This document shows, piece by piece, positions 28,472 through 59,485 of a DNA stretch of 64,000 nucleotides. Origin of the DNA: Lactiplantibacillus songbeiensis. Its GTDB lineage: Bacteria > Bacillota > Bacilli > Lactobacillales > Lactobacillaceae. Each line of letters begins with the position of its first letter. Within the stretch, counting starts at the first letter, position 1. The DNA is taken from contig NZ_BJDL01000006.1 in NCBI RefSeq assembly GCF_005405125.1, positions 62,001-126,000 of the forward strand, in the 5' to 3' direction. The position numbers and the translations under genes are program-made. Below the pieces are notes generated by a model, which was given only the letters and a program-made list of their open reading frames with translations, was not told the origin of the DNA and ran no database searches.

Positions 28472-28681
28472 GGATTTCACCAACTAAATTTTTTTGAGTT
28501 TAAAACACGTAATCATTAGTATACCAAAAATTATGAACTGCGTTTAGGGCGGGCAGTGATTTTAAAGGTTAACTTTAACTAAACAGGTGATGAAACGATG
28601 CTTAGCACTGGTTAAGCTTGTTGCCTGTTGATTGGCCTCAGAACTGACCGGGGCTTAAGTTTGAGAAAGACACTCGAATAG

Positions 28682-28883
28682 TCAATCATTAATTTCTTAA
28701 TACCCATTAGTTAACGTCGGGCGGTCCAGAATTGGCTCAGTGGTGTCGTTTATCTTGGTCGGTGGTTTTCCGACTTAGATAAAGCCCGGCTTTCGAGACC
28801 GCACTATGGCTCGAAAACGCGGCCACCACGTTCCAGCCAATTCTGGACCAACCAGAGTGGCAATTTAATCTAACCAGCACCAA
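28682..28883 (+). repeat. Dispersed structured intergenic element, copy A
   Basis: A 202-bp block aligns without gaps to 59138-59339, with about 20 differences by hand count. Pairings seen: GGTCCAGAATTGGCT (28723-28737) with its exact complement at 28835-28849; GTGGTG (28740-28745) with CACCAC (28824-28829); a hairpin 28750-28782; TTTCGAG (28791-28797) with CTCGAAA (28810-28816); and GTCGGGC (28716-28722) with GCCCGGC (28784-28790), which would be pseudoknotted. It lies between the amidase and hisS leader. It could be an RNA or a mobile hairpin element. Confidence 0.75.
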
Positions 28884-28927
28884 ACATCATAAATCGTATT
28901 TTCATGCCAACATTTTACGGGTGTCAG

Positions 28928-28956: not shown

Positions 28957-28979
28957 TAATCATAAGTTAATAAATCGAC

Positions 28980-29184
28980 CGCAGAGAAAGTAAGAGCATT
29001 GTGCCACGCTATAGCCAGAGACCGGTAGTGCTGAGAATTCCGGATAGCGAGCAATGAGGAGACGCTTTTGAGGTGAACGAAAAGTTCCGCCTGTTATTAA
29101 CACAGACGTTATCAGTTAGTGCTCATAAAGGTGGTACCGCGCAAAAAAGCGCCCTTGGATAAACAATCAAGGGCGCTTTTTTTG
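28980..29184 (+). promoter_or_regulatory. T-box riboswitch controlling hisS-aspS
   Basis: The conserved T-box AAGGTGGTACCGCG is at 29128-29141, followed by the terminator GCGCCCTTG / CAAGGGCGC with T7 (29148-29183). In Stem I, a lower stem (GAAAG/CTTTT) and an upper stem (CATTG/CAATG) bound a loop whose 3' side contains GAC (29061-29063). I read this as an Asp specifier, so uncharged tRNA-Asp would induce both hisS and aspS. The specifier assignment is by hand folding. Confidence 0.88.
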
Positions 29185-29212
29185 TCGATTTGAATTGAAG
29201 GAGGAGATTAGG

Positions 29213-56427: not shown

Positions 56428-59037
56428 ATGAATCCAGAACAATTAACTGAAAGTTTACAACAAGCCTTAACTGAGGCCCAACAAATTGCCCAAACACGGC
56501 ATCATCAAGAAATCGGGGTGCCGCATCTATTTAAATTTATGACACAGCCTGGGGAACCAGCACGGCAAATCTTTAGTGAAGCTGGTGCCGATTTGGACCA
56601 GTTGCAAACGGAACTTGATCGCGAATTAGACGAAATCAGTACGGTCAGTGGCGGCAATGTTCAATATGGTCAAAGTTTTAGCAGTAGCTTAGCCACGTTA
56701 ATGCAGACCGCGGAAGCCAAACGCAAGTCACTCGGTGATGATTTTTTAGCCACCGATACGGTTGTGTTAGCTTTGATGGACCAAACGGGTGATCAATTAA
56801 CTCGTTATTTGACCCAACAAGGGCTCACCGCGGGCCAAGTTAAAAATGCGGTTGATCGGATCCGAGGTGGTCAACGGGTGACCTCGCGAAATCAAGAAGA
56901 TCAATATCAATCCTTGGAAAAGTATGGGGTTGACTTGGTCAAAGCCGCCCGTCAAGGGAACCAAGATCCCGTTATCGGCCGTGATGAAGAGATTTTAGAT
57001 GTCATTCGGATCTTATCACGCAAGACGAAGAATAATCCGGTCTTAATCGGTGAACCAGGGGTCGGTAAAACGGCGATTGTTGAAGGTTTAGCCCAACGGA
57101 TCGTGCGTGGGGATGTGCCGTCTAACTTAAAAGATAAAACGTTATTTTCACTAGATATGGGAGCCTTGATTGCCGGTGCCAAATATCGTGGTGAATTTGA
57201 AGAACGATTAAAAGCGGTTTTGAAAGAAATTAAAAAGAGCGATGGCCAGATCATCATGTTCATCGATGAAATCCATAATATTGTTGGCGCGGGTAAGACT
57301 GAAGGCAGTATGGATGCCGGCAATTTGCTTAAGCCAATGTTAGCGCGGGGCGAACTCCATCTGATTGGGGCCACCACGCTGGATGAATATCGGCAATATC
57401 TGGAAAAAGACAAAGCGCTTGAACGCCGGTTCCAACGGGTGCTCGTGGCGGAACCTTCCGTAGACGATACGATCAGTATTTTACGGGGGTTAAAAGAACG
57501 TTTTGAAATCCATCATGGCGTCCGGATTCACGATAATGCGTTAGTTGCTGCGGCTAAGTTATCGGATCGATACATTACGGATCACTTTTTACCTGATAAA
57601 GCCTTGGATCTGATCGATGAAGCGTCGGCGGAGATTCGGGTAGAAATGAACTCAAATCCCACGGAACTGGATCAGGTCAATCGGCAATTAATGCGCTTAG
57701 AAGTTGAAGCCGCGGCCTTGAAGAAAGAAACCGATGAAGCCTCTGTCAAACGGCTCGGTGACCTGCAACAAGAATTAGCCAGTGCGAAGGAAAAGCAACG
57801 GACGCTTGCTGAACGCTGGGATAGTGAAAAGAAGAGTCTCCAGGCGTTAAGTGACAAAAAGGCTGCTTTAGATCAAGCTAAGCATGACTTGGAAACGGCA
57901 GAAAGTAAATACGACTTGGAGACGGCCGCTAAGTTACAACATGGCACGATTCCTAAATTAGCTGATGAACTTAAACAGATGGAAGCCAATGACCACCATG
58001 CTGACTGGTTAGTGGAAGAATCGGTAACCGCGGATCAAGTGGCTAATGTGGTATCGCGGATGACCGGAATTCCAGTTAATAAGCTGGTCGCTGGCGAACG
58101 CGAAAAACTTTTACATTTAGCTGATAACTTGCATCAACGGGTCGTTGGTCAAGATACGGCTGTTAATGCGGTGGCCGATGCGGTTTTACGGTCACGAGCG
58201 GGATTACAAGATCCTAATCGGCCGTTAGGTTCCTTTATGTTCTTAGGGCCAACCGGGGTCGGCAAGACGGAGCTCGCTAAAGCGTTAGCTGAAAACTTAT
58301 TTGATGCGGATGATCATATGGTCCGGATTGACATGAGTGAGTATATGGAAAAAGCCTCAGTTTCACGGCTAGTTGGGGCTGCGCCTGGCTACATCGGTTA
58401 TGAGGAAGGCGGCCAGTTAACGGAGGCGGTCCGGCGTAATCCATATTCAATCGTCTTATTCGATGAAATCGAAAAGGCACATCCAGATGTGTTTAATATC
58501 TTATTACAAGTGTTGGATGATGGCCGTTTAACGGATGGTCAAGGTCGGACAGTTGATTTCAAGAATACCATTTTGATCATGACGTCTAACTTGGGGTCAC
58601 AACAACTGTTGGCTGGCGTCGACGACCGTGGACAATTATCCGATGAGGCGCATGATCAAGTCATGCAGTTGGTTCAAAGCCGGTTCAAACCGGAATTCTT
58701 GAATCGAATCGATGACATCATCATGTTTACACCATTACAATTGGATGCGATTGAACAAATCGTGGTGAAATTAATTGCCCGGTTATCTAGCCGGTTACAA
58801 GATCGTGAAATTACGTTAAAAATTTCGGACTCAGCTAAGCAATGGATTGCTAAGCAAGGCTACGAACCAGCCTATGGGGCGCGACCATTGCGGCGTTATA
58901 TTACCAATTATGTGGAAACGCCCTTGGCAAAAGAAATTATTGCCGGTCGGGTGACGCCACAATCGACCGTTGAGATTAATCTGCTAGATGATCATTTAGT
59001 CTTTGAAAATCAATCGGCTGATGCTGTGAAGGCTTAG
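56428..59037 (+). CDS. clpB: ATP-dependent chaperone ClpB
   Basis: 869 aa. Clp_N domain (~1-145), first AAA module ([13 protein letters not shown], Walker A), coiled-coil middle domain (~400-520; long Lys/Glu/Ala heptad region), second AAA module ([15 protein letters not shown]). It disaggregates protein with DnaK. ATG 56428 after GAGGGGG; an ATG closer to the site is out of frame. Under CtsR control in the leader. Followed by the structured repeat copy B. Confidence 0.97.
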
Positions 59038-59137
59038 TTGAAATTGTTGCCTGCCGGTTGGTTCCTAAAGCGCTGGAATGCCATGGCTGAGTATTTTAGC
59101 AACCAACGACTCGGCTAGATGACTGGATTGAAAATAA

Positions 59138-59339
59138 TCAATCGTTAATTTTTTAATAGCCGTTAATTAACGCCGGGCGGGCCAGAATTGGCTCAGTGGT
59201 GTCGTTTATCTTAGTCGGTGCTTTTCCGACTTAGATAAAGCCCGGCTTGCGAGACCGTTCTATGGCTCGCAAACGTGGCCACCACGTTCCAGCCGATTCT
59301 GGGCCAACCAGAGTGGCAAGTTAAACCAACTAGCACCAA
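59138..59339 (+). repeat. Dispersed structured intergenic element, copy B
   Basis: Gapless match to 28682-28883 (copy A), about 20 differences in 202 positions. It keeps the stems: the third-position change in the TTTCGAG/CTCGAAA stem becomes TTGCGAG/CTCGCAA, a compensatory T-A to G-C change; the 28757 G.T pair becomes A-T; GCCGGGC now pairs perfectly with GCCCGGC. One outer-stem pair changes to G-G. It lies in the long gap between clpB and dnaE and is followed by a terminator. Confidence 0.75.
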
Positions 59340-59361
59340 GCGTATTCAGCATACTGACTAA

Positions 59362-59403
59362 GCTACCAACTAACGATAACAACCGTTAGTTGGTGGCTTT
59401 TTC
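59362..59403 (+). terminator. Terminator between clpB/repeat and dnaE
   Basis: ACCAACTAACG pairs with CGTTAGTTGGT, followed by a T-rich run. It ends the clpB transcript, which would include the repeat element as its 3' UTR. Confidence 0.85.
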
Positions 59404-59485
59404 TTTGCGCACAATGTCATTTAATGCCGAATCGAACCGGCGTTTGCTATAATAGAATTAATAATAAAGTGAAAGGAGCGGTAGG

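Follow-up and report, generated by a model that had tools for sequence, protein, structure and literature searches.

A covarying RNA domain carried head to head in IS982-type miniature elements of Lactiplantibacillus songbeiensis and found with IS110-type elements

Copies A and B are two occurrences of a repeat in a 64,000-nucleotide (nt) stretch of the Lactiplantibacillus songbeiensis genome (contig NZ_BJDL01000006.1, positions 62,001 to 126,000; hereafter, the window). On balance, both are probably miniature inverted-repeat transposable elements (MITEs) with a body composed of two divergent copies of one RNA domain: alpha, which is well kept, and beta, which is decaying. Judged from its sequences, alpha is a strongly covarying, RNA-like family. 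Once inserted, alpha changes at a slower rate than the other parts of its element. The ends of the element match those of an intact-frame insertion sequence (IS) of the IS982 family in a sister species, and insertion duplicates approximately 8-9 bp.

Copy A (28682-28883) and copy B (59138-59339) have approximately 20 differences and no gaps where compared, as a preliminary description of this DNA had stated; they share 90% identity over 202 nt. The nested stems that it listed are present on folding and include a 15-bp outer stem, GTGGTG/CACCAC, a hairpin at 28749-28783, and TTTCGAG/CTCGAAA. Compared to shuffled sequences, the folds have z-scores of -6.5 (copy A) and -6.0 (copy B). The replacement of TTTCGAG/CTCGAAA in copy A by TTGCGAG/CTCGCAA in copy B is a real compensated stem, seen in the sequences. 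The repeat itself is genuine, but 202 bp is the extent of neither the element, which is longer (28598-28887 in copy A), nor the RNA core, which is shorter (28712-28861). In copy A, beta was recognized through comparison with other loci matched by R1, a covariance model of the RNA. The parts of the two elements are as follows.

28598..28887, + strand: copy A, whole MITE of ~290 bp, ATGCTTAGCACTGG...CAGCACCAAACAT, with degenerate inverted ends; aligned to five full-length copies from the same genome.
28598..28680, - strand: copy A beta, the mostly deleted remnant of the head-to-head partner RNA; from alignment with full copies, with approximate boundaries.
28712..28861, + strand: copy A alpha, the structured RNA core; R1 match of 176.1 bits, and fold.
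28589..28597, no strand: left flank of copy A, a possible target duplication; 6 of 9 positions match 28888-28896, a weak match read by eye.
28888..28896, no strand: right flank of copy A, a possible target duplication; window sequence, with ends from the alignment.
59033..59343, + strand: copy B, MITE; from alignment, with a degenerate and approximate left end (by eye) and an intact right end, ...CAACTAGCACCAAGCGT.
59038..59120, - strand: copy B beta, remnant of the head-to-head partner RNA; from alignment, with approximate boundaries.
59168..59317, + strand: copy B alpha, the structured RNA core with the compensated TTGCGAG/CTCGCAA stem; R1 match of 178.3 bits, and fold.

The conserved core is a Y-shaped structure of approximately 150 nt with 46 pairs (RNAalifold). 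Besides an outer stem and a GUGGUG/CACCAC stem, it has an internal loop (CA/GUUCC) and a three-way junction with two hairpins. Covariation was measured in two alignments. A1 is a MAFFT alignment of 66 diverse cores from the source and related species, drawn from 137 distinct cores (2 of the 68 sequences chosen were left out). In A1, two-sided compensatory changes occur in 23 of the 46 pairs, compared to 13.3 after shuffling; 97.8% of cells are paired, compared to 89.3% in shuffled alignments and 28-45% in slid-partner controls; and covariation is 0.258, compared to 0.095. A3 is composed of 97 matches from 9 genera aligned to R1, and because it is fitted to that model, its figures tilt towards structure: 44 of 46 pairs have two-sided changes, and 97.1% of cells are paired (69.6% shuffled). 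On the element strand, G.U pairs outnumber A.C pairs (52 to 25 in A1 without pair 100-108, and 120 to 28 in A3 without pair 193-272), which favors an RNA of this strand. The motifs GCUCAG, CUUrG/CUUAG, GAGACC...GGCUC, and CGUUCCAGC are highly conserved, with one or another missing from a few of the weakest matches. The unpaired motifs GUUCC and GAGACC...GGCUC are strongly conserved across the 9 genera.

A pseudoknot between GTCGGGC and GCCCGGC had also been proposed and was rejected. None of its 7 pairs covaries in A1, where 89.2% of cells are paired (89.3% shuffled). In A3, 54.4% are paired, compared to 49.3%, and the 3' strand is part of the P4 stem. No T run was seen by eye 3' of the core, and on that sequence feature the core is not a terminator by itself.

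Structured RNAs of the Lactobacillales, including Lacto-rpoB and Lacto-usp, are listed in PMC2864571. The element resembles the Lactobacillales RNAs of Rfam in being a structured RNA mainly of this order. Rfam 15 has no family at the core, whether at gathering, E <= 10, or E <= 1. No title or abstract opening found among open-licence papers, and no passage inspected in PMC2864571 and PMC2267715, describes the element, though absence from print is not claimed. The suggestion that the element may be undescribed stands that far.

The repeat is not limited to copies A and B and additional pairs covary, so the refuting case set by the preliminary description (two copies alone and no more covarying pairs) does not apply. 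The source genome (G000), a 3.03-Mb assembly of 50 contigs, has at least 237 copies of the 18-nt core TTAGATAAAGCCCGGCTT at up to 2 mismatches (139 on the + strand and 98 on the - strand). The reversed 18-mer has 0 matches, which excludes chance. All of the best 150 of 2005 candidates in this genome match R1 (E <= 5.8e-31). With at most the best 10 candidates scored per genome, 76 of the 301 Lactobacillaceae genomes have an R1 match at E <= 1e-3, spread over 13 of the 40 genera; three of the 76 (G103, G133, and G158) are weak partial matches. At E <= 1e-4, R2 matches 31 of 395 genomes of the order. Of these, 26 are Lactobacillaceae, and the remaining five belong to one other family and are weak (E 1.8e-5 to 3.2e-7); by eye, the four inspected carry the hairpin and internal-loop motifs of the core. 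Loci L415-L418 (family f2, another family of the order) carry relatives of 165-171 nt that have GAAAT...GGAAATTTCC-like borders and may be linked to known enterococcal repeats. In a phylum-wide sample, the only genome of 398 with a match is the source genome.

The exact 18-mer occurs at 52 or more loci in named genomes. Among the matches listed, 49 are in four Lactiplantibacillus species and 3 are elsewhere; R1 matches none of these 3 at E <= 0.1. The 18-mer is present in 12 of 60 genomes, the source included, and in 6 of the 12 the inspected matches lack the surrounding RNA. Seven named plasmid records have partial matches covering 31-38% of the query (Lacticaseibacillus paracasei, Levilactobacillus brevis, and Liquorilactobacillus), placing partial relatives on plasmids of common fermentation genera. 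Copy A found no match in plasmid and phage DNA, and two other members found none in plasmids. Loci L439-L444 (G094) belong to a separate subfamily, a longer variant of ~207 nt whose conserved flank exceeds 150 nt. In three further genomes of other genera, the RNA is bordered by yet other conserved flanks.

The RNA domains occur in a preferred arrangement. R1 matches at most 500 nt apart (E <= 0.001, antisense self-matches left out) form 59 head-to-head sites, 9 tandem sites, and 0 tail-to-tail sites, where one duplicate site (L165 and L239) was counted once, reducing 60 to 59. The gap between head-to-head domains is 23-60 nt in 36 of the 59 and at most 367 nt. What appears to be a 5' half with inverted repeats is beta, the diverged partner on the opposite strand. 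One head-to-head pair (L194 1306-1638, G280) has a T-box leader (Rfam, 97 bits; L194 1774-1981, minus strand) on one side and the apparent start of the downstream gene on the other.

The preliminary description left a choice between a conserved RNA and a mobile hairpin element; both hold, since the covarying family is carried by an element that has empty sites, duplicated targets, and ends of the IS982 type. Both ends were recognized in 32 copies among the 75 distinct cores of the source genome, and these copies are 251-406 bp long, with one outlier of 632 bp. The best identity between their 8-bp flanks is 0.82, compared to 0.57 when shuffled (maximum of 0.63 in 300 shuffles), which rules out an artefact. 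In the Lactiplantibacillus MITEs, the target duplication is 8-9 bp. Empty sites in other species were found for 3 of 55 two-ended copies, with comparison loci that cover part of those genomes. One is clean, with a single target copy (L368 vs L109, AATGGAACT), and two are supportive (L351 vs L086; L039 vs L112/L069).

The 17-bp terminal inverted repeat (TIR), at up to 2 mismatches, has 181 matches in the source genome, 179 in L. dongliensis (G008), and 21 in L. nangangensis (G014); the reversed control has 0, 1, and 0, respectively. Of the 21 genomes in the genus, 15 have at least one match, most of them with counts that differ from the control by only a few. The IS982 partner was found through these ends and not through neighboring open reading frames (ORFs). 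In L. nangangensis, pairs of ends lie 941 bp apart, and two such pairs bound intact elements of 958 bp that carry a 290-amino-acid (aa) ORF of the IS982 family (NF033520, 222 bits; cut-off of 130). A third copy has decayed. In one of the intact copies, each end is the same as the MITE consensus end, and ATCAATT (7 bp) lies on either side. Like IS982-family MITEs, the element has short target duplications, and its 17-bp consensus ends are those of an IS982-family IS. Unlike them, its interior is a head-to-head covarying RNA domain and not IS982 sequence, and the RNA domain also occurs in other genera without the IS982-type ends.

An intact IS982 partner was not found in the 50 contigs of the source genome (E <= 1e-20), which hold one decayed relative with 60% identity and 9 stops. 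No transposase was recognized by eye beside the RNA in the 40 widest clusters of 1639 ORFs of at least 90 aa. Going by the matching ends, an IS982-type transposase very probably moved the element in trans, and because only a decayed relative was found, spread in the source genome has probably stopped.

Constraint at individual insertions was assessed by comparing copies of the source genome to L. dongliensis copies in the same orientation with both flanks syntenic. Of 27 pairings, 22 were used; two cross-pairings of tandem copies and three with poor alignment were left out. Over these 22 orthologous pairs, divergence is 4.9% in alpha (166/3376), 11.0% in beta and the spacer (637/5805), and 14.7% in the tail (119/808). 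Alpha is the slower part in 19 of 22 pairs (sign test, p 0.0009). Within alpha, loops have diverged by 7.1% and paired positions by 3.1%, and all 12 two-sided changes keep pairing. A shape that is kept at individual copies suggests a job beyond movement. Because no intact partner transposase was found in the source genome, selection for movement fails to explain the constraint, and a role in cis is thereby favored.

The best guess, a tentative one, is that the RNA works in cis as a protein-binding RNA. In the fuller form of this explanation, to which a probability of roughly 0.3 is given, an RNA module has been exchanged between IS982-type MITEs and IS110-type elements across the Lactobacillaceae and is maintained in working form at hundreds of individual sites, where it lets insertions live inside transcription units either way round. 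Because the two domains point outwards, a host transcript crossing from either side would include one sense copy close to where it leaves the element. This copy would fold and bind a host factor (RNA polymerase, a ribonuclease, or a ribosome-associated factor), and the bound factor would make the insertion harmless or useful to neighboring genes. If so, the head-to-head pair would give every crossing transcript one sense copy, whichever way the insertion lands. One genome holds more than 200 copies of a predicted folded RNA with no match in the RNA catalogue searched. As the same module accompanies two unrelated transposon types, the use of the RNA to transposon and host is directly testable in food bacteria that are harmless.

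Several results weigh against this explanation or its parts. Among 38 one-sided changes in orthologous alpha, 18 break a pair and 20 keep it. In 8 of the 22 pairs, some paralog in the source genome is closer than the ortholog, so ectopic gene conversion or re-insertion may contribute to the constraint seen in place. In a further 16 pairings with L. dongliensis the two copies face opposite ways; several come from two-RNA sites, and not all are explained. The four inspected are two independent insertions, one apparent same site (L136/L079), and one complex case; L136 and L079 could be an inversion in place across two species. The IS982 link rests on the ends, an intact-frame IS with these ends was seen only in L. 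nangangensis, and the other intact copy there has no target duplication. The pairing figures of A3 carry the tilt given above. Finally, gene orientation around 66 copies of the source genome is unbiased (20, 18, 15, and 13 over the four arrangements). The shared orientation with the next gene that was reported for copies A and B is therefore not general, and no regulatory target is visible. An enrichment of synthetase genes was considered and discarded as not convincing: hisS, leuS, and trpS (named by eye) are among 104 genes facing an element.

An unlikely alternative is that the element works as DNA: a transposase or nucleoid protein would bind it as a folded single strand or a cruciform. 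REP/BIME elements are thought to act in this way, and together with ERIC, BOX, RUP, NEMIS, and EFAR they make up the small dispersed palindromic repeats of bacteria. The present element is like these in being short, high in copy number, foldable, and intergenic. It differs from their descriptions in its ~150-nt three-way junction, its covariation in 44 of 46 pairs, and its head-to-head pairs. The inverted pair, the unbiased orientation to genes, and the hundreds of dispersed copies all suit a DNA role, but the excess of G.U over A.C on one strand and the unpaired motifs conserved across genera do not.

IS110-type elements provide the second transposon link and another rival explanation. The RNA adjoins the 3' side of an IS110-type transposase C-terminus in G010 and G013 (same genus) and in G310 and G151 (another genus), with PF02371 present in the C-terminus at L279. 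In 10 of 15 inspected IS110-linked copies, the RNA is followed by CGTAGGAA with no more than 1 mismatch, a sequence that also forms the right end of IS110s from other genera. One G010 copy, L279 (G010:C2), with the RNA downstream, has an open 184-aa frame running off the contig; this IS110-type element interrupts an ABC transporter gene (by eye) at the contig end. The RNA module, found both with IS982-type ends and within IS110-type elements, has travelled with two unrelated transposon types, and its presence in the latter makes the domain look like cargo that unrelated transposons can take up.

The RNA could be the guide of an IS110-type element, with the MITEs as its non-autonomous copies. 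IS110 is not known to insert by target duplication, and head-to-head pairs are not a known part of bridge-RNA anatomy. The IS110/IS1111 elements with a bridge RNA or seekRNA (PMC11208160 and PMC11187229) do resemble the present case, in which some IS110-type elements have a structured RNA within their 3' noncoding part, and the adjacency and shared right end given above agree with a guide. They differ in that readable relatives lack the RNA. Of 30 IS110-relative loci compared to R1 at E <= 5, only two match, both already known. The RNA is absent from the 3' parts of the full-length relatives L311 (G084) and L316 (G265), of L309 (G014; 73% identical, decayed), and of L312, L313, and L315 (shortened frames). 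The closest full-length IS110 (L310 in G203; 68% identical) has a long N run in its 3' noncoding part, which is unreadable where the RNA would lie, so an RNA is possible there and the odds of a guide rise slightly. The source genome has 0 matches to a C-terminal IS110 remnant, and its copies have target duplications and IS982 ends. Taken together, these results make the guide explanation improbable. The IS110-type right ends (CTTGACTAATCGTAGGAA and variants) lie directly before intrinsic-terminator-like hairpins at L246, L280, L287, L297, L304, L311, and L312 (by eye), as if this IS110 group targets terminators; L313 and L316 differ.

It is also rather improbable that the element is an ordinary functionless MITE whose hairpin pairing is kept by template switching between arms. 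Quasi-palindrome repair is a known mutational route, and variants of the P4 stem change as blocks (e.g., L015 vs L074). Template switching leaves unexplained why unpaired motifs are conserved over 9 genera and why, at the same sites, alpha has diverged less than beta. Least credible is a stand-alone small RNA gene acting in trans from many loci: the domain has its own outer stem and a terminator-like hairpin often follows the G310 copies (by eye), but the 23-60-nt spacers of most head-to-head pairs leave little room for two promoters, and redundancy would not protect each copy.

The neighborhoods of copies A and B have further features. The left end of copy B overlaps the stop codon of clpB (TAG, 59035-59037), so copy B seems to supply the end of this gene. 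One feature follows copy B.

59366..59404, + strand: intrinsic-terminator-like hairpin and T run just past copy B; by eye.

A T-box-like leader (GGTGGTACCGCG, then a terminator) was seen by eye at 28960-29190, between copy A and hisS; Rfam at gathering gave no report for it in the window. An amidase gene and hisS (named by eye) flank the RNA in two genera, at copy A and at L185 (G035).
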